Source: a bacterium BMS3Abin14
GTDB lineage: Bacteria; BMS3Abin14
Direction: 5' to 3'
Length of the DNA stretch: 35,410 nt
Assembly: GCA_002897695.1 (NCBI GenBank)
Contig: BDTG01000046.1
Location: forward strand, 1-35,410
In this document: in pieces, positions 2,902 through 28,418 of the stretch
How the letters are laid out: each line of letters opens with the position of its first letter
Position numbering within the stretch: position 1 is the stretch's first letter
Position numbers and translations under genes: made by a program
The notes under the pieces: model-generated
The model's database searches: none
What the model saw: the letters and a program-made list of their open reading frames with translations, nothing else
What the model was told of the DNA's origin: nothing

Positions 2902-3948
2902 TTACTGCAGGGAATACCACGTCCCCTTGCCGGCGCCGTGCTGCGCCAGGCGGCCCTGCTTCACCAGGCGGCGCAGATGCACCTTGAGGGTGTTGCGGTT
3001 CGCCCCGGTCAGGGTGACGGCCTCGGCCATCGTCAGCCTCCCCCGCTCCTTCACCACCTGAAGGATCTCCGAGGACAGGGCCGGAACCCTGTACAGCTCC
3101 TTTTCGCGATCAAGCTTCCTCGCCAGGTTATCCTTTTGCGCCTTGAGTGCCTTTAAGAAGAAAAGGGTCCAGTGGTTCAGGTTCTCGTCCCTTGTCCTGA
3201 TCCCCGCTTGGGAGGACCTGAGTGCCTGGTAATACCCATCCTTGTTCTCCTCCACCATGCGCTCAAGAGAACTATAGGGAACATATCCATACCCGTTATG
3301 GAGCAGCATGAGTGTGGTCAGAATACGGGACAGGCGCCCGTTGCCGTCCTGGAATGGGTGGATAGCCAGGAAGTGGATCACGCCGGCGGCGATGACGAGC
3401 AGGGGATGAAGATCATCCCGGTCAAAAGCGTCGTTTACGCTTTTAGTCAATCGGGTCATCAATCCGGGAGTGGCGAACGGCGAGGCGGTTTCAAACACGA
3501 TCCCCAGGCTTTTCCCTTCGCTGTCGAAGGCTTCTACATGATTTGGATTTTTCTTGTACTCACCCCGGTGCGGCGCATCCCGGACGCTGTGGCGAAGCAG
3601 GATTCCGTGGAGCTGCTTGAGGTGGTTCTCGTCCAGCGGAATATGCTCCCAGGACTCGAATACCGTGTTCATTGCCTCGGCGTACCCGGCCACCTCCTCT
3701 TCGTCCCTGGACCTGAAGGAGGTGGTGTCCAGACCTCTCAGGAGAGCTTCGACCTGCCCATCCGTGAGCCTGGCTCCCTCGATACGGGTGGATGAACCGA
3801 TGGACTCGATGGAGGAAACCCGGCGCAGCCTGGCCATGGCGTCGGGCGGCAGGTGATCGAGCGTGGTCCACCGCCCCTTAAACTCGTCGATCTCGGCGAT
3901 GAGCTTGAGAACCTCCGGGGTTATGGTGAAAACGCGGGCATGGATCAT
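2902..3948 (-). CDS. Fic family protein with N-terminal inhibitory motif
   Basis: A 348-residue Fic protein. The catalytic motif HPFQDGNGRLSR lies at residues 197-208 with the invariant His 197, so it should transfer AMP (or another nucleotide monophosphate) from ATP to a protein hydroxyl. The flap region is near FDSEGKSLG. An (S/T)xxxE(G/N) inhibitory helix, STRIEG at 53-58, lies N-terminal to the domain, which places it in the class with intramolecular autoinhibition. The C-terminal 90 residues end in a winged helix (TMAEAVTLTGANRNTLKVHLRRLVKQGRL) that may bind DNA, as in many prokaryotic Fic proteins. GGAG precedes the ATG by eight bases. It stands alone; the target is unknown. Confidence 0.93.
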   Translation of the reverse strand: MIHARVFTITPEVLKLIAEIDEFKGRWTTLDHLPPDAMARLRRVSSIESIGSSTRIEGARLTDGQVEALLRGLDTTSFRSRDEEEVAGYAEAMNTVFESWEHIPLDENHLKQLHGILLRHSVRDAPHRGEYKKNPNHVEAFDSEGKSLGIVFETASPFATPGLMTRLTKSVNDAFDRDDLHPLLVIAAGVIHFLAIHPFQDGNGRLSRILTTLMLLHNGYGYVPYSSLERMVEENKDGYYQALRSSQAGIRTRDENLNHWTLFFLKALKAQKDNLARKLDREKELYRVPALSSEILQVVKERGRLTMAEAVTLTGANRNTLKVHLRRLVKQGRLAQHGAGKGTWYSLQ

Positions 3949-4429: not shown

Positions 4430-5118
4430 AATGCTCCTCTTATCCTTTCAGGCAGCCTTTTACAGGATTCCCTTGTCCCCCTCGTTCTCAATATTCCTGC
4501 AGATGATCACATAAGGTCTGAAATCTGGGAATCCGGGGGACGGTTTCATGAATCGCTTCAGGCATATCATAAGTAAAAGCCTGTCAATGGGCAAGAGATC
4601 CTGGTGAAAAATGGATTACAGCTTCCCATGAGCCCGAGGCGGCCCTTCGCCACAAAGCATATTGTTTCACCACCCGTTTGTCACGCTTTAGCGTGACTCG
4701 CTGGAGGCACGGAGTTCCCGTTGGACGTTGGACCCGCTTTATCTACCGATGCGGGTATAAAGGACGGGTTTCGGGTTAAACGCGAAGCGAAGCTGGTTCA
4801 CGGCGAAGCCGAGCGCTCAAACCCGGAAGCCGTCGCTAAGTGCTTAGGTAAGAACAGGACCTAGTTCCTGGTGCCTGGTGCCTAGGGAAATCAGTGCTTA
4901 GTGCCTGGTGCCTTGGAAAGTAAACTACCAGGAACTAGGGCTAGGAACTAGGAACTGGGTCCTAGGACCACCCTGCGCATAAACTGCGCGCAGGGGTGCC
5001 GATTACATTCCACGGTGCGCAAATTGTAACCTGCAGGATAAATACGAATATCTACCCATGACCCATGAAAGCATGAATTTGCATTATATTACAATGACAT
5101 ACGATGGTGGAAAAGAAG
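4430..5118. repeat. 690-base non-coding region with nested inverted repeats
   Basis: No gene is supported. It contains GTCACGCT/AGCGTGAC around TT (4680-4697), an ACCCGC/GCGGGT pair near 4733-4755, a cluster of CCTGGTGCC and CTAGTTCC units (4860-4915) whose first 13 bases at 4860-4872 are exactly complementary to 4927-4939, further GGAACTAG units to 4957, and a hairpin at 4969-4998 (CACCCTGCGC with GCGCAGGGGTG, one bulge). GTTGGACGTTGGAC-like units recur at 4728 and near 9018. The last 80 bases are AT-richer and lead into the sigma-54 promoter; ATTGTAA (5023) and TTACAAT (5089) form a spaced inverted pair there. Confidence 0.7.
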
Positions 5119-5135
5119 TTGGCACGGGGGTTGCT
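5119..5135 (+). promoter_or_regulatory. Sigma-54 (RpoN) promoter, exact consensus
   Basis: The sequence TTGGCACG, four bases, then TTGCT matches the published -24/-12 consensus YTGGCACGRNNNTTGCW at every fixed position, with GG and GC twelve bases apart. Transcription should start near 5145. No coding gene lies downstream on the plus strand; the next gene is convergent. Activation would need a bacterial enhancer-binding protein; the AT-rich 100 bases upstream could hold its sites. Confidence 0.8.
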
Positions 5136-5144
5136 ATAACCGAG

Positions 5145-5232
5145 GGTGAAGGCTCCTTTCTCACCCCGGTTGCACGGCAGCGGCAAACCCTTTCTCCCCT
5201 CCTTTAACCCTGCCGAGCGACCGGGTTTTTTT
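5145..5232 (+). ncRNA. Candidate sigma-54-dependent small RNA
   Basis: Transcription from the exact sigma-54 promoter would run about 85 bases to a T7 run. The RNA can fold GGGTGA (5144-5149) with TCACCC (5161-5166), leaving a loop containing CTCCTTT, and CGGCAG (5175-5180) with CTGCCG (5210-5215) around a pyrimidine-rich loop. That loop carries CCTCCTTT at 5198-5205, exactly complementary to a full Shine-Dalgarno sequence such as the AAAGGAGG in front of glucokinase here. No start codon with a plausible frame is present before the terminator. The function is inferred: an antisense regulator comparable in logic to sigma-54-driven small RNAs such as Qrr. It ends ten bases before the stop codon of the convergent glycosyltransferase gene. 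Confidence 0.55.
5206..5232 (+). terminator. Rho-independent terminator of the small RNA
   Basis: AACCC at 5206-5210 pairs with GGGTT at 5223-5227 around a 12-base loop and is followed by a run of T reaching 5232. The stem is short, so efficiency may be moderate; it competes with the CGGCAG/CTGCCG hairpin for its left arm. Confidence 0.5.
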
Positions 5233-5241
5233 GCGCCCGGG

Positions 5242-6567
5242 TCACCCGATCAAACGACGGTACGTCCTCGCGAGCCGTTCGGGCCCCACCCCGAGGACAT
5301 AGAGCCAGGTGACAAGCTGATTGACGATGGTCACCCGGAAAACACCTTTCTTCCTCCACTTCCTGGCGGAGGTCACGGCGGTCTCATCGAGAAGGACCAC
5401 CCGGCCCTGACCGCGAAGGTGCCGCATGAGCTGGTAGTCCTCCATGATGGGCTGATCCGGGAAACCTCCGGCCAGCCGGAAGGCGGGCGCCCTGACGAAG
5501 ATCGCCTGATCCCCGAAGACGATCCCCAGACGTGAGCGCCGATTGGCAAGCCGCTCGACGATGCCCATGGCAGCGGACCGGTAATCCACCGCGAAACGGA
5601 AAGCCCCCGCGACCACGTCCTCCCTGATCATGGCTCTTCCGATGGCCGTCTCGAACCCGTCCGGCAGGGACGTATCGGCGTGGAGAAACAGGAGGATGTC
5701 CCCGTGGGCAACCTCCGCCCCGCGGTTCATCTGGGCAGCCCGGCCAGGTTGGGAATCGACGACATGGATCTTATGTGCCAGGCAGGCCTCCAGGGTCCCG
5801 TCGGTGCTTCCGCCATCGGAAACGATCACCTCGACCCCGGGAACCGATTCCAGCCTTTCAAGCAGGGAATCGATCCACTCCTTTTCATTGAAGGTGGGGA
5901 TGACGATGGAAATGGTAAGCTTCCGGTGCGCCTTCGGCGCCGCGGCGGCGGCCTTCTCCCAGTGGACAAGGTCCTCCGGCCCGTCAACATCGTCGAGGTC
6001 ATCCAGCAGCCCAAGGTCGAGACCTGTTTCCGCCACAGCATTGATCGTTTCGGACAGAACGTTCCCGGTGCCCCACGGGATGTCCCTGAAAACTGCGTTG
6101 AAAAGGCCCTCCGGAGCTCCCGACCGGATGCCGATGAGGTAGTAGCCCCCATCGGTGGACGGCCCCAGGACGATGGGGTTGTCCTCCAGAAGGACCAGGG
6201 CCTCATCCACGTGGCCCCGGCCAAGCTCCGGGCAGTCCGTGCCGATAATAACGACCTTCCGGTACCCGCTCCCGAACGACTCCCTGAATGCCCGCTCCAT
6301 CCTTGATCCCAGGTCGCCGTCTCCCTGAGGCACATAGTCCACTTCATCCCCCAGCCAGTTCTTCACGGCTGCCGGGTCCCCATCCGTGAAGCGGACCTGC
6401 ATCTCCACAGTGCCGGCCCCATGGAGCTGAACTGCGGCCAGCGTGTGTTCGGTCATATCCCGGGAAAGATCGGCCGCACCCTGCTCACCGAGGACGGGGA
6501 TCAACCGGGTCTTTGCTTTTCCCGGGACTGGATATCGGGTAAAAAGGATCAGGAGGGAGGAGGGCAT
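5242..6567 (-). CDS. Fused TIGR04282-TIGR04283 glycosyltransferase
   Basis: A 441-residue two-domain protein. Residues 1 to about 200 match the DUF2064/TIGR04282 family (LLILFTRYPVPGKAKTRLIP at the N-terminus, VVIIGTDCPEL and GPSTDGGYYLIGI in the middle), a nucleotidyl/glycosyltransferase-like fold. After an Ala-rich linker (KAAAAAPKAHRK), residues 214-441 are a GT-A family 2 glycosyltransferase of TIGR04283 type (ISIVIPTFNEKEWIDSLL, VSDGGSTDGT, GRAAQMNRGAE, FLHADTSLP, GDQAIFVRA). Both families are named for arsenosugar biosynthesis gene clusters and usually are separate adjacent genes; here they are one chain. It is the last gene of the arsS operon, 17 bases after the flavoprotein gene and without a clear ribosome binding site, so coupling is likely. 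Confidence 0.9.
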   Translation of the reverse strand: MPSSLLILFTRYPVPGKAKTRLIPVLGEQGAADLSRDMTEHTLAAVQLHGAGTVEMQVRFTDGDPAAVKNWLGDEVDYVPQGDGDLGSRMERAFRESFGSGYRKVVIIGTDCPELGRGHVDEALVLLEDNPIVLGPSTDGGYYLIGIRSGAPEGLFNAVFRDIPWGTGNVLSETINAVAETGLDLGLLDDLDDVDGPEDLVHWEKAAAAAPKAHRKLTISIVIPTFNEKEWIDSLLERLESVPGVEVIVSDGGSTDGTLEACLAHKIHVVDSQPGRAAQMNRGAEVAHGDILLFLHADTSLPDGFETAIGRAMIREDVVAGAFRFAVDYRSAAMGIVERLANRRSRLGIVFGDQAIFVRAPAFRLAGGFPDQPIMEDYQLMRHLRGQGRVVLLDETAVTSARKWRKKGVFRVTIVNQLVTWLYVLGVGPERLARTYRRLIG

Positions 6568-19191: not shown

Positions 19192-19249
19192 TGATTTACT
19201 TGACAATCCTGCCTTTTCATGCGAGTCACACAACATGGGACAAAGGTTG

Positions 19250-19333
19250 TCCTGCGTTAGGGGTGCTCGGGTTTCCGGGCTGAGAACAGACCCTTACGAA
19301 CCTGATCCGGATAATGCCGGCGAAGGGAAACGG
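19250..19333 (+). promoter_or_regulatory. TPP riboswitch (THI element)
   Basis: The conserved core is plain: GGGGTGCTCGG, then GCTGAGA, ACCCTTACGAACCTGAT, then GGATAATGCCGGCGAAGGGA. CGTT near 19254 and AACG near 19328 close the P1 helix. It binds thiamine pyrophosphate and shuts off the thiGHSE operon. A TTGACA at 19200-19205 is a possible -35 for the transcript, without a good -10. Confidence 0.95.
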
Positions 19334-19367
19334 GATCAGATACACCGGATCAAAGGTGATTTATTTG

Positions 19368-19400: not shown

Positions 19401-20171
19401 ATGGACGGACCGCTTGTAATTGGAGATCACACATTTTCCTCCCGCCTGCTGGTGGGAACGGGCAAGTTCTCCTCTCCCGAGGCGATGAGGGACGCTCTGG
19501 ATGCATCGGAAACCGAGATGGTGACCGTAGCCCTCAGACGGGTGGACCTGGCAAATCCCGAGGATAGCATTCTCTCTTTCGTGGATCGGGATCGCTATGT
19601 CCTGCTCCCCAACACCTCGGGGGCGCGGGATGCCGATGAAGCGGTGCGTCTCGCCCGCCTGGCCAGGGCCGCCGGCTGCGGCCCCTACGTCAAGCTGGAG
19701 GTCACACCGGATCCCAATTATCTCCTTCCCGATCCGGTTGAAACCCTCAAAGCCGCAGAGGTCCTGGTAAGGGAAGGGTTCGTGGTCCTTCCGTACATCC
19801 CGGCCGACCCGATACTGGCCAAGCACCTCGAGGAAGCTGGAACTGCCACCGTGATGCCGCTGGGTTCGCCCATCGGGTCCAACCGTGGATTGAGGACCAG
19901 GGATGCCATTGAGATCATCATCGAGATGGTCAACATCCCGGTGGTAGTCGATGCCGGTCTGGGTGCCCCATCCCACGCCGCCGAGGCGATGGAGTTGGGC
20001 GCCGATGCGGTTCTTGTCAACACGGCCATCGCTGTGGCGGGAGATCCCGCCATCATGGCCCGTGCATTCAAAAAGGGTGTTGAGGCGGGAAGAGAGGCTT
20101 ATCTCGCCGGGATGGGCTGTCCAGGTAAAAAAGCGGTGCCCTCCAGCCCTTTAACCGGCTTCCTGAGGTAG
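19401..20171 (+). CDS. thiG: Thiazole synthase ThiG
   Basis: A 256-residue TIM-barrel enzyme that joins 1-deoxy-D-xylulose 5-phosphate, dehydroglycine and the sulfur of ThiS thiocarboxylate into the thiamine thiazole. [19 protein letters not shown] opens the protein, the Schiff-base lysine is Lys98 in [10 protein letters not shown], and [28 protein letters not shown] forms the phosphate-binding end of the barrel. An earlier in-frame ATG at 19314 lies inside the riboswitch and is rejected. The operon continues with thiH three bases after the stop. Confidence 0.96.
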
Positions 20172-25683: not shown

Positions 25684-27513
25684 ATGAACAAAATACATCA
25701 CCCATCGTCAAACAGCGCACATACCTTTTTCATACCGGTTATGGGTACTGGCTTCACGATCGACTCACCCCTCATGATCGCCAGGTACGGCATCTCTTCG
25801 ACAATTTCCCTCGTTGACGACACATTCATCGAACAGATGCGCCGGTTTCATTGCGAGCAGGTGGGGGAACCTTACAAGGAAATCTCCAGGGACCAGGACG
25901 ACCACCGGGCCAGGAGAATCACCGCCTACCTTAACCTCATCGACAGGCTTGTTGAAAAAGGGACCGACGAACTGAGGGCCTCCACCTTCGAGCCAGGTAG
26001 CGAGATAACCCGATATTTTGAGCTTCTTCCGGACTGTCCCCTGAAATCATCCTACGTTCAGATGCTCGGGACCAGCGATCCCGGCGAGATGGCACACAAG
26101 CAGGAGGCCCTGCGCCGTCAGGTTTTACCCGGAAGCATAGATGTCAATATAATGACCAAGCTTGACCGGAATTATTTTAAAAATGGGCAGGCGCTTCCCC
26201 GGGAATTTTCCGACGCGCTGGCCGCTCTTCGTGGCTACGCCAACAGCACCCTAAGTTCCTCTGTTGTCTTTTCCGCGGGTTTAAATCCCCATCTTTACAG
26301 CTACGCCGCCGACTTCAAGGATTTTATGCCTGATGAAGCAGGATCCCTGAAAAAACAGATTGTTCTCAAAGTGAGTGATTACCGTTCAGCCGTGGTCCAG
26401 GGCAAGTTCCTTGCTAAGCGGGGCCTTTGGGTTTCAGAATACCGCATCGAATCCGGCCTTAACTGCGGAGGACACGCTTTCCCGTCCAAGGGAAACCTCA
26501 TGGGGCCGATTCTCGAGGAGTTCAAACAGAAAAATGAGGAACTGATCGGCCAGACCCACAAGCTCTATTCCACAGCCCTCTCATTACGCGGATTATCCCC
26601 CACTCCCGACCCCCACGAGGTACGCTTCAGGGTATCGGGTGGCATCGGCACCGCCGAGGAGCACGCGTTTTTACTGAACTTCTACGGGATAAGCAAGGTT
26701 GGGTGGGGCACCCCATTCCTCCTGGTCCCCGAGGTGACCAATGTTGACGATGAGCATATCGAAAAACTCATCAACGCCACCGACGACGATGTCTGCCTGA
26801 GTGCATCTTCGCCGCTGAATGTGCCATTCTGGAACCTCATGACCTCCGCCAGCGAGGAAGCACGCCGGAAACGAATATCCGAAGGGCGGCCGGGCAGCCC
26901 TTGCCCCAAGGGCCATGCAAAAATCTTCAACACTGAATTTACGCCACGTCCTGACTGCATTGCTTCCAGAAGCTACATCAGCAAAAAACTGCCCCATATG
27001 GGAGAAGAGGGGCTTACGGAAGAACAGTTCAAATGGATTAAAGAGAACGTTCTGAACAAGTCGTGCATCTGTCACGACCTCTCCGGAGGCGCCACGGTTA
27101 AAACCGGCATCGATCCCGAGGCAACACCCTCCATTTGCTGCGGGCCGGCCATCGTAAATTTTTCGAAGATCGCGACACTGGAGGAGATGGCGGGACACAT
27201 CTACGGACGGCTTTCCCTGCTGACCAGTGCGGACCGGCCTCACATGTTCATCCGGGAATTGTCCCTTAACCTGGATTACCTTAGGGGCGAGATGGAGAAG
27301 TTTTCCCTGGGCGTCATGAACACAGCTCCAAAGTACTTCCGTGAATTCAAGGATAACCTTGCCGCAGGCATCGAGTACTACGGAAAACTTGCGGAACAGT
27401 TCGTGGAGGGGAAACGTACGCATTTTCTCGATGACCTCACAAAACAGAAGGAAGTCCTGGAAAAGATGATCGCGGGAATGGCCCGGGAACCGGGCCTCAA
27501 TGCGGTCGGCTAG
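25684..27513 (+). CDS. Unrecognised 609-residue protein, FMN TIM-barrel-like
   Basis: I do not recognise the exact family. The start (FFIPVMGTGFTIDSPLMIARYGISSTISLVDD at residues 15-46) reads like the first strand and cofactor loop of 2-nitropropane dioxygenase or PfaD-type flavoenzymes. In the middle are SGLNCGGHAFPSKGNLMGPILEEF and VRFRVSGGIGTAEEHAFLLNFYGISKVGWGTPFLLVPEV, the latter like the phosphate-binding GGIGT and GTxFLxxPE strands of that superfamily. Later cysteines (CPKGHAKIF, PRPDC, KSCICHDL, SICCGPA) could bind metal or a cluster. The C-terminal 120 residues are helical. The Shine-Dalgarno GACGGGA is weak. It ends in CTAG, shared with the convergent DUF2007 gene. Function not assigned. 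Confidence 0.8.
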   Translation: MNKIHHPSSNSAHTFFIPVMGTGFTIDSPLMIARYGISSTISLVDDTFIEQMRRFHCEQVGEPYKEISRDQDDHRARRITAYLNLIDRLVEKGTDELRASTFEPGSEITRYFELLPDCPLKSSYVQMLGTSDPGEMAHKQEALRRQVLPGSIDVNIMTKLDRNYFKNGQALPREFSDALAALRGYANSTLSSSVVFSAGLNPHLYSYAADFKDFMPDEAGSLKKQIVLKVSDYRSAVVQGKFLAKRGLWVSEYRIESGLNCGGHAFPSKGNLMGPILEEFKQKNEELIGQTHKLYSTALSLRGLSPTPDPHEVRFRVSGGIGTAEEHAFLLNFYGISKVGWGTPFLLVPEVTNVDDEHIEKLINATDDDVCLSASSPLNVPFWNLMTSASEEARRKRISEGRPGSPCPKGHAKIFNTEFTPRPDCIASRSYISKKLPHMGEEGLTEEQFKWIKENVLNKSCICHDLSGGATVKTGIDPEATPSICCGPAIVNFSKIATLEEMAGHIYGRLSLLTSADRPHMFIRELSLNLDYLRGEMEKFSLGVMNTAPKYFREFKDNLAAGIEYYGKLAEQFVEGKRTHFLDDLTKQKEVLEKMIAGMAREPGLNAVG

Positions 27514-28361: not shown

Positions 28362-28418
28362 GTAAGTTATCCTGTTGACCAGAATATTTCCGTAGGCCTT
28401 GACTTGCGCATAACTTAC
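28362..28418. promoter_or_regulatory. Inverted repeat in the lexA promoter region
   Basis: GTAAGTTAT (28362-28370) and ATAACTTAC (28410-28418) form a perfect 9-base inverted pair. The second arm lies between the -35 and -10 of lexA; the first is also part of AGGATA-N9-TATCCT (28353-28373). Either could be LexA sites; LexA boxes vary greatly between deltaproteobacterial groups, so this is a candidate only. Confidence 0.4.

Follow-up and report, generated by a model that had tools for sequence, protein, structure and literature searches.

A conserved candidate small RNA gene with a sigma-54 promoter and paired putative activator sites in an uncultured phylum-level lineage

We analysed a stretch of 35,410 nucleotides from a bacterium BMS3Abin14 (contig BDTG01000046.1, forward strand), called the window here, in which the sigma-54 promoter sequence TTGGCACG-GGGG-TTGCT at positions 5119-5135 precedes a short terminated region predicted to encode a small RNA (sRNA). 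The features of this locus, with their conservation among the eight copies described below, are as follows.

4974..4990, no strand assigned: activator site A, TGCGCATAAACTGCGCG, to which a sigma-54 enhancer-binding protein probably binds; a 17-bp palindrome in all eight copies
5016..5032, no strand assigned: activator site B, TGCGCAAATTGTAACCT, second site of the pair, with one half weak
5119..5135, + strand: sigma-54 promoter, -24 TTGGCAC and -12 TTGCT; TTGGCAY and TTGC invariant in all eight copies
5146..5233, + strand: predicted small RNA gene, predicted +1 near 5146 and final T at 5232; 111 bits with covariance model R1, the window copy being one of the eight from which R1 was built
5148..5163, + strand: invariant 16-nt 5' segment GAAGGCTCCTTTCTCA, with a small hairpin at 5148-5160 and the first anti-Shine-Dalgarno (anti-SD) sequence CTCCTTTCT; identical in all eight copies
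5165..5183, + strand: 5' arm of the long terminator hairpin; same hairpin predicted in all eight copies
5184..5207, + strand: pyrimidine-rich loop CAAACCCTTTCTCCCCTCCTTTAA (24 nt) with the second anti-SD sequence CCTCCTTT at 5198-5205; near-invariant up to CCTCC
5208..5225, + strand: 3' arm of the same hairpin, again predicted in all eight copies
5226..5232, + strand: T7 run of the intrinsic terminator, read from the sequence

On the opposite strand, positions 5242-6567 hold a fused TIGR04282-TIGR04283 gene (DUF2064 plus glycosyltransferase 2), annotated as of the arsenosugar biosynthesis type. A first-pass annotation, made from the letters of the window, had described a terminator ending 10 bases before the stop codon of this convergent gene; the hairpin and the T7 run hold, and the spacing between the run and the stop at 5242 was counted as 9 bases. 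Repeats of the CTAGGAACTAGG / GTGCCTGGTGCC type were seen by eye at 4860-4975, directly upstream of the activator sites. Elsewhere in the window, 2902-3948 (-) encodes a protein of the Fic/DOC family whose C-terminus gives a weak winged-helix match, and 19249-19345 (+) is a TPP riboswitch (66.6 bits), followed near 19401 by the start of a ThiG-like protein (by eye), which is ordinary thiamine control.

The promoter is the single exact occurrence of TGGCACGNNNNTTGCW in the window, and its -24 and -12 elements are kept in every copy, with bases of the spacer between them varying. Allowing up to two mismatches, TGGCACGNNNNTTGCW was not enriched in the window (2 found against 4.58 expected), so that the weight of the match lies in its exactness and not in the loose motif. 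Across the organism's own genome the pattern TGGCAYN5TTGCW occurs 15 times, against 6 for its reversed control, and this excess, together with eight copies in seven of the 12 genomes of the lineage, bears out the claim that the promoter is more than a chance match. The machinery to read it is encoded: rpoN was found in all 12 genomes of the phylum-level lineage, the own genome included, and the own genome gave 20 activator-domain matches, 2 of them weak.

Sigma-54 promoters start transcription 12 bases past the C in the -12 element, which would place +1 near 5146 and give an RNA of 87-88 nt. In the alignment of the eight copies, strong conservation begins 1-2 bases after this predicted start, and the bases between the -12 element and the start are variable. 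The long hairpin is predicted in all eight copies, with a loop of 22-24 nt that is unchanged up to CCTCC except in G001, where one A is missing. The run of T after CCTCC is 1-3 long, so that the full CCTCCTTT (CCUCCUUU in the RNA) is found in three of the eight copies, including that of the window, and CCUCC in all of them; the anti-SD sequence that the annotation had noticed in the loop is confirmed. Beyond the hairpin, TTT or longer follows within 2 bases in every copy (in G005 only TTT, then AAA). The annotation had also described two hairpins with pyrimidine loops, and two are predicted in all copies, the first being the small form GAAGG-CUC-CUUUC at 5148-5160, which covers part of one anti-SD segment. 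Its sequence never varies and therefore gives no covariation evidence either way. Some copies lack a larger GGGTGA/TCACCC hairpin, which would have to include +1 or bases ahead of it.

For the long hairpin, 99.2% of the cells in the eight-copy alignment are paired (99.4% for the whole predicted fold), and two-sided changes occur in 2 of its 15 pairs. The covariation score of 0.155 compares with at most 0.036 in slid versions and with a mean of 0.102 in shuffles, of which 1 in 500 reached as high; the number of pairs with two-sided changes was not above the shuffles (2 vs 1.7; 343/500). Of 200 shuffles of 5143-5232, 199 fold less well than the real sequence (z -2.70). When the fold is extended by 18 bases to 5250, z is -2.22, 8 of 200 shuffles are as good, and the 5' part pairs with the downstream bases instead. 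The loop is kept better than parts of its own stem, which suggests a partner in trans. Conservation of promoter, hairpins and loop in relatives was the check that the annotation had proposed for a small RNA gene with a sigma-54 promoter, and its survival in all eight copies supports that assignment.

Searched with R1, the covariance model made from the eight copies, the 12 genomes of the phylum-level lineage, which are also those covered by the order search, gave eight copies in 7 genomes. A 201-base query run by BLAST on 61 genomes gave eight strong matches (E <=2e-21) in 7 genomes, which form one family; the remainder were short weak matches, the best at E 0.003, bringing the tally to 40 of 61 genomes at E <=1. 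Over 386 genomes and with stricter filters, the R1 matches at E <=0.001 were confined to these 7, and a promoter-plus-seed pattern over the 12 genomes recovered the same eight copies, with none in the reversed control. Two pattern hits in unrelated genomes (L036 near 3367 and L048 near 4435) are attributed to chance and have no relation to the RNA; they are alike and look by eye like homologous coding sequence. A scan for the promoter plus CTCCTTTCTC in 84,980 species, one genome each, from which entries for the own genome and its close relatives may be missing, gave 21 stretches, 3 of them family members (CP070719, CP070682 and CP070698, apparently the genomes G002, G003 and G009), and the remaining 18 scored at most 14.2 bits with R1. 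Rfam 15 has no match at the place of the RNA at gathering score, and a lax search of 5000-5300 gave two weak matches (18.2 and 14.8 bits) far under their gathering scores. The RNA was not found in 5 of the 12 genomes (G006, G007, G008, G010 and G011). The aminotransferase gene that neighbours other copies was likewise not found in G006, G007 and G008 (E cut-off 1e-20), and in G010 and G011 a contig edge cuts this gene on the RNA's side, so that absence there says nothing. On this sequence evidence, the RNA gene is a genuine, new and lineage-specific sRNA family of a known general kind, so far seen in one uncultured phylum-level lineage only.

The copies occupy two kinds of place. Six lie at what we call the ancestral locus, one each in G002, G003, G004, G005 and G009, and the sixth being a second copy in the own genome (contig C45:74809-74896, L021 3310-3397, - strand) with its own promoter and activator sites. 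There they sit upstream of a gene for a secreted outer-membrane-protein-like (OMP-like) product (Pfam weak or none), with aminotransferase and serA genes next, where the fetched stretch shows them. The window copy and that of G001 share another locus, adjoining the glycosyltransferase gene, and the distribution of the copies suggests that this is the derived place.

Upstream of all eight copies lies a pair of predicted sites of the form TGCGCA-N5-TGCGCA, 17 bp each, with matrix consensus TGCGCAAAATTTGCGCA. Scored with a matrix from which the four sites of the own genome were omitted, site A of the window reaches 21.2, the best in 835 kb of that genome; the matrix does include G001, which is of the same genus and carries its copy at the same locus as the window. 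With both sites scoring at least 9 and their starts 28-60 bp apart, a pair occurs in these 835 kb only at the two sRNA copies. A site-like match at 28405 of the window, before a lexA-like gene (by eye), was taken as chance because it stands alone. The distance from A to B is 42 bp in the window and G001 copies and 40 bp in the others; measured from TGGCA, the sites stand at -146/-104 in the former two and at -134/-94, within one base, in the six ancestral-locus copies. Information per column is 1.02 and 0.82 bits in the two sites, compared with 0.25 between them and 0.36 after them. The consensus for integration host factor (IHF) is WATCARNNNNTTR, and an IHF-like site lies at exactly -30 from TGGCA in six of the eight copies (4 perfect, 2 with one mismatch), and is missing at -30 from the copies of the window and G001. 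Among AT-rich control stretches of equal length, a perfect match at any position was found in 75 of 5000 and one with at most one mismatch in 789 of 5000. Together, the predicted sites and the IHF-like element resemble the usual layout of an activator-dependent sigma-54 promoter.

In the phylum, a TGCGCA half-site standing 55-85 bp ahead of a sigma-54 promoter was met 4 times, against 0 in the control, and all four carry the second half at the right spacing (scores 14.2-16.6); in 800 kb of the own genome, only 1 of 242 half-sites scores at least 14 and, by its score, this is the second sRNA copy. The hit in G004 lies at ccmE-ccmF (Pfam), that in G002 at a gene cluster whose ccmF lies roughly 0.3 kb farther on (Pfam), that in G007 at a thioredoxin-like TlpA-type gene followed by a TPR gene (by eye), and that in G003 adjoins plsY and a RicT-like gene (by eye), with no clear function assigned. 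We also searched the 260 bp upstream of each of the 15 TGGCAYN5TTGCW promoters of the own genome. Here ccmE-ccmF (contig C19, L150; promoter 26384-26399) has a weak site of 10.6 at -89; among the promoters other than those of the sRNA copies the best sites are 11.4 at -260 (L148) and this 10.6, the rest scoring at most 5.3. A site of at least 10.6 at -160 to -60 was met at 34 of 20,000 random positions. Thus, ccm-type genes with sigma-54 promoters and sites of this type are found in four genomes, by eye in G007 and with a weak site in the own genome. The occurrence of the same site type at ccm genes suggests that the RNA shares its activator with them, and its recurrence at cytochrome c maturation genes fits a respiratory or redox signal better than nitrogen. 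Nitrogen control, which the first-pass annotation had offered, is unsupported: no nitrogen gene was recognised at any of the 15 promoters of the own genome or at the four phylum hits, gene identities being partly by eye.

The PrsR/PEP-CTERM system was considered as the source of the activator and rejected, the sigma-54 promoter of a PEP-CTERM-like protein (by eye; L146) being without these sites; the part of PMC9850573 available to us gives no site sequence for that system. Separately, a sigma-54 promoter without TGCGCA sites stands before a type IV pilin-like gene (by eye) on contig C33 near 60950 (L153).

Both conserved C/U-rich segments of the RNA contain an anti-SD sequence, CTCCTTTCT near the 5' end and the CCUCC-bearing loop. 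Strong SDs are in use in this organism: among 733 sampled genes, 344 have a 5-mer of AAAGGAGG ahead of the start, against 48 with one in a stretch further upstream, the 344 being inflated because starts were picked with a preference for SDs. No Hfq (PF17209) was detected in the 12 phylum genomes, of which 7 reach 90% completeness or more; the same profile did match E. coli and B. subtilis and, in all, 5 of the 14 genomes used as controls. Target prediction against SD regions, which the annotation had proposed, was run in the own genome and brought no target above the controls: for the loop against the 733 sampled genes the best energy was -26.9 kcal/mol and the tenth -24.1, compared with a mean best of -27.6 and a mean tenth of -23.0 for 20 shuffled loops. 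Duplex energies of the loop at the starts of the OMP-like genes beside the RNA range from -11.8 to -23.5, against a sampled-gene mean of -13.0 (sd 4.6), the stretches scored differing between the two. Sites with at most 3 mismatches to the two segments number 30 and 25, against 26 and 20 for the reversed controls. These counts are close to the controls and we therefore claim no target; contexts were viewed for 49 of the 55 listed sites, the others being four sRNA-copy places and two activator genes (L096, L110). By the anatomy of the RNA, SD blocking is nonetheless the likeliest mechanism.

Considering these findings, the interpretation that we favour, and hold to be probable, is that of a sigma-54-dependent, trans-acting sRNA under a dedicated activator, which would block SDs without Hfq and act as the repressive branch of a redox or respiratory response. 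A dedicated enhancer-binding protein would bind the two TGCGCA-N5-TGCGCA sites about 75-150 bp upstream of the -24 element and activate the sigma-54 polymerase, with the IHF-like site lying in between at the ancestral locus. The RNA would start near 5146 and end at its own terminator, and its 5' CTCCTTTCT and C/U-rich loop would pair with the ribosome-binding sites of target mRNAs and so block their translation without Hfq. The assignment to such a response is proposed because the same site type precedes cytochrome c maturation genes. What can be read from sequence is the conservation, the architecture of promoter and sites, the predicted fold, the lack of a detectable Hfq and the sites shared with ccm genes; we infer transcription, the binding of activator and IHF, pairing at SDs and the direction of the effect. 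A more specific version, in which one activator turns on heme-cytochrome assembly and the RNA, with its two ribosome-like anti-SD segments, shuts off competing envelope or metabolic mRNAs, is put forth as a tentative possibility.

Two other explanations assign the C/U-rich segments a different partner. The RNA could be a sigma-54-driven decoy or sponge, after the model of the CrcZ-type RNAs, whose loop would bind a protein or another RNA and not SDs. An invariance of the loop well beyond the anti-SD core, the failure of any target to stand out in prediction and the presence of CCUUUCUC and CUCCUUU in both segments (by eye) are what such a molecule might display, but both segments carry anti-SD sequences in an organism that uses strong SDs, the A-rich or GGA-type repeats of CrcZ/CsrB RNAs are missing (by eye), and Hfq, the partner of CrcZ, was not found in any of the 12 genomes, so that we consider a decoy rather unlikely. 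It can also be envisioned that the RNA mimics the tail of 16S rRNA and sequesters SDs broadly, as a global brake on strong-SD mRNAs. The usual 16S 3' end is CACCUCCUUUCU, and CUCCUUUCU and CCUCCUUUAA resemble it, the tail compared not being the host's own; matching SDs precede many sampled genes (starts picked with SD preference), and no specific target emerges. Against this, the invariance past the anti-SD core points to specific partners and a global effect would presumably need very high levels of the RNA, which makes this explanation unlikely.

As a cis element, that is, only a terminator or leader of the neighbouring gene, the region would suit its position beside the convergent gene in the window and the T run after its hairpin; yet the 5' segment lies 222-818 bases from the next gene start in the six ancestral-locus copies, the neighbours differ between the two loci, the next gene at the ancestral locus has its own TTGACA/TAGTTT-like promoter (by eye), and a pure terminator would not keep the loop and the sigma-54 promoter, and we regard this as very improbable. 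The statement of the first-pass annotation that nothing codes downstream has to be amended in that a GTG frame from 5146 is open to 5535 in the window, which would allow a small protein. Among the eight copies, however, start codons differ or are missing and one-base indels shift the frame, so that coding is very unlikely; moreover, no room is left for a ribosome-binding site after the predicted +1, and a small protein has hardly any probability left. Equally far-fetched is a feedback on activators, with the 5' segment acting as antisense to the part of sigma-54 activator genes that encodes GAFTGA: GAAGGCTCCTTTCTCA is the complement of T-GAG-AAA-GGA-GCC-TTC, able to code EKGAF, and a 19-base hit in another genome (L009) falls within such a gene (by eye). 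This was rejected, as in 17 activator genes of the own genome just 10-14 of the 16 positions agree with the complement, and two of the 30 sites with at most 3 mismatches are the sRNA copies themselves, leaving the count near the 26 of the reversed control.

Sigma-54-driven sRNAs are known from a few cultured groups (Pxr, CJnc230, Qrr and CrcZ). The present family, conserved and carrying the full set of promoter elements, extends the kind to an uncultured lineage without detected Hfq. Like Pxr, it could serve to study the way sRNAs of this type locate and retain their targets in the absence of Hfq, and the sites shared with cytochrome c maturation genes yield a prediction on signal and function that can be tested. 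The general features of a sigma-54-dependent sRNA are present: the promoter before a short terminated gene and the paired predicted sites in all eight copies, and rpoN in all 12 genomes. The Qrr sRNAs of Vibrio have a sigma-54 promoter, upstream sites for an enhancer-binding protein, multiple copies and pairing at SDs; they are Hfq-dependent, form four stem-loops and act in the LuxO quorum circuit. The sigma-54 promoter, the predicted activator sites and the multiple copies recur here, SD pairing being established for Qrr and only proposed for this RNA. The Qrr-like logic of the first-pass annotation thus survives in outline, by the promoter, and not in its Hfq or its four stem-loops: no Rfam match was obtained, two hairpins are predicted, and the failure to find Hfq in any of the 12 genomes indicates that the RNA is not of the Qrr type.

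Parallels for the anti-SD logic can be found in other hosts. The csRNAs of the CiaRH regulon of Streptococcus are described, in the part of PMC3091779 available to us, as small and intergenic, with their own promoter and terminator, an anti-SD sequence, in many cases two stem-loops, and hosts without Hfq. An anti-SD sequence in an unpaired region is common to both, here a predicted 24-nt loop with CCUCCUUU in the window copy; the csRNAs differ in having CiaR-activated promoters in place of a sigma-54 promoter, and in the pneumococcal ones the anti-SD lies between stem-loops instead of in a large terminator loop. From the corresponding portion of PMC11187230, CJnc230 (FlmE) of Campylobacter jejuni is an RpoN-dependent RNA of about 98 nt with two stem-loops and a CCUU anti-SD that represses translation at ribosome-binding sites, and thus shares the anti-SD logic and the two stem-loops, which are predicted in our case. 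Pxr of the myxobacteria, as far as the excerpts of PMC5684412 and PMC5568312 describe it, is an intergenic RNA of 108 nt with stem-loops, a predicted sigma-54 promoter and an upstream enhancer-binding region, has several paralogs in Cystobacter, and belongs to a group in which no Hfq homologs were detected. Its gene is placed between the sigma-54 response regulator gene nla19 and an NADH dehydrogenase gene, and three stem-loops are predicted in most alleles and two in two Cystobacter paralogs, the sequence of SL1 and SL2 being conserved (PMC5568312, in part). What Pxr binds had been described as unknown before a study of 2025 proposed pxrA as a likely target (PMC11928866, in part). So far as these sources go, Pxr differs in adjoining nla19/pxrR and in controlling development, compared with the two predicted hairpins and the sites shared with ccm genes in the present family; the neighbourhood of Pxr was not found at these copies, which have OMP-like, aminotransferase, serA or glycosyltransferase neighbours. 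Compared by description and not by sequence, Pxr is the nearest precedent, sharing a predicted sigma-54 promoter, an enhancer region, a host without detected Hfq and more than one copy.
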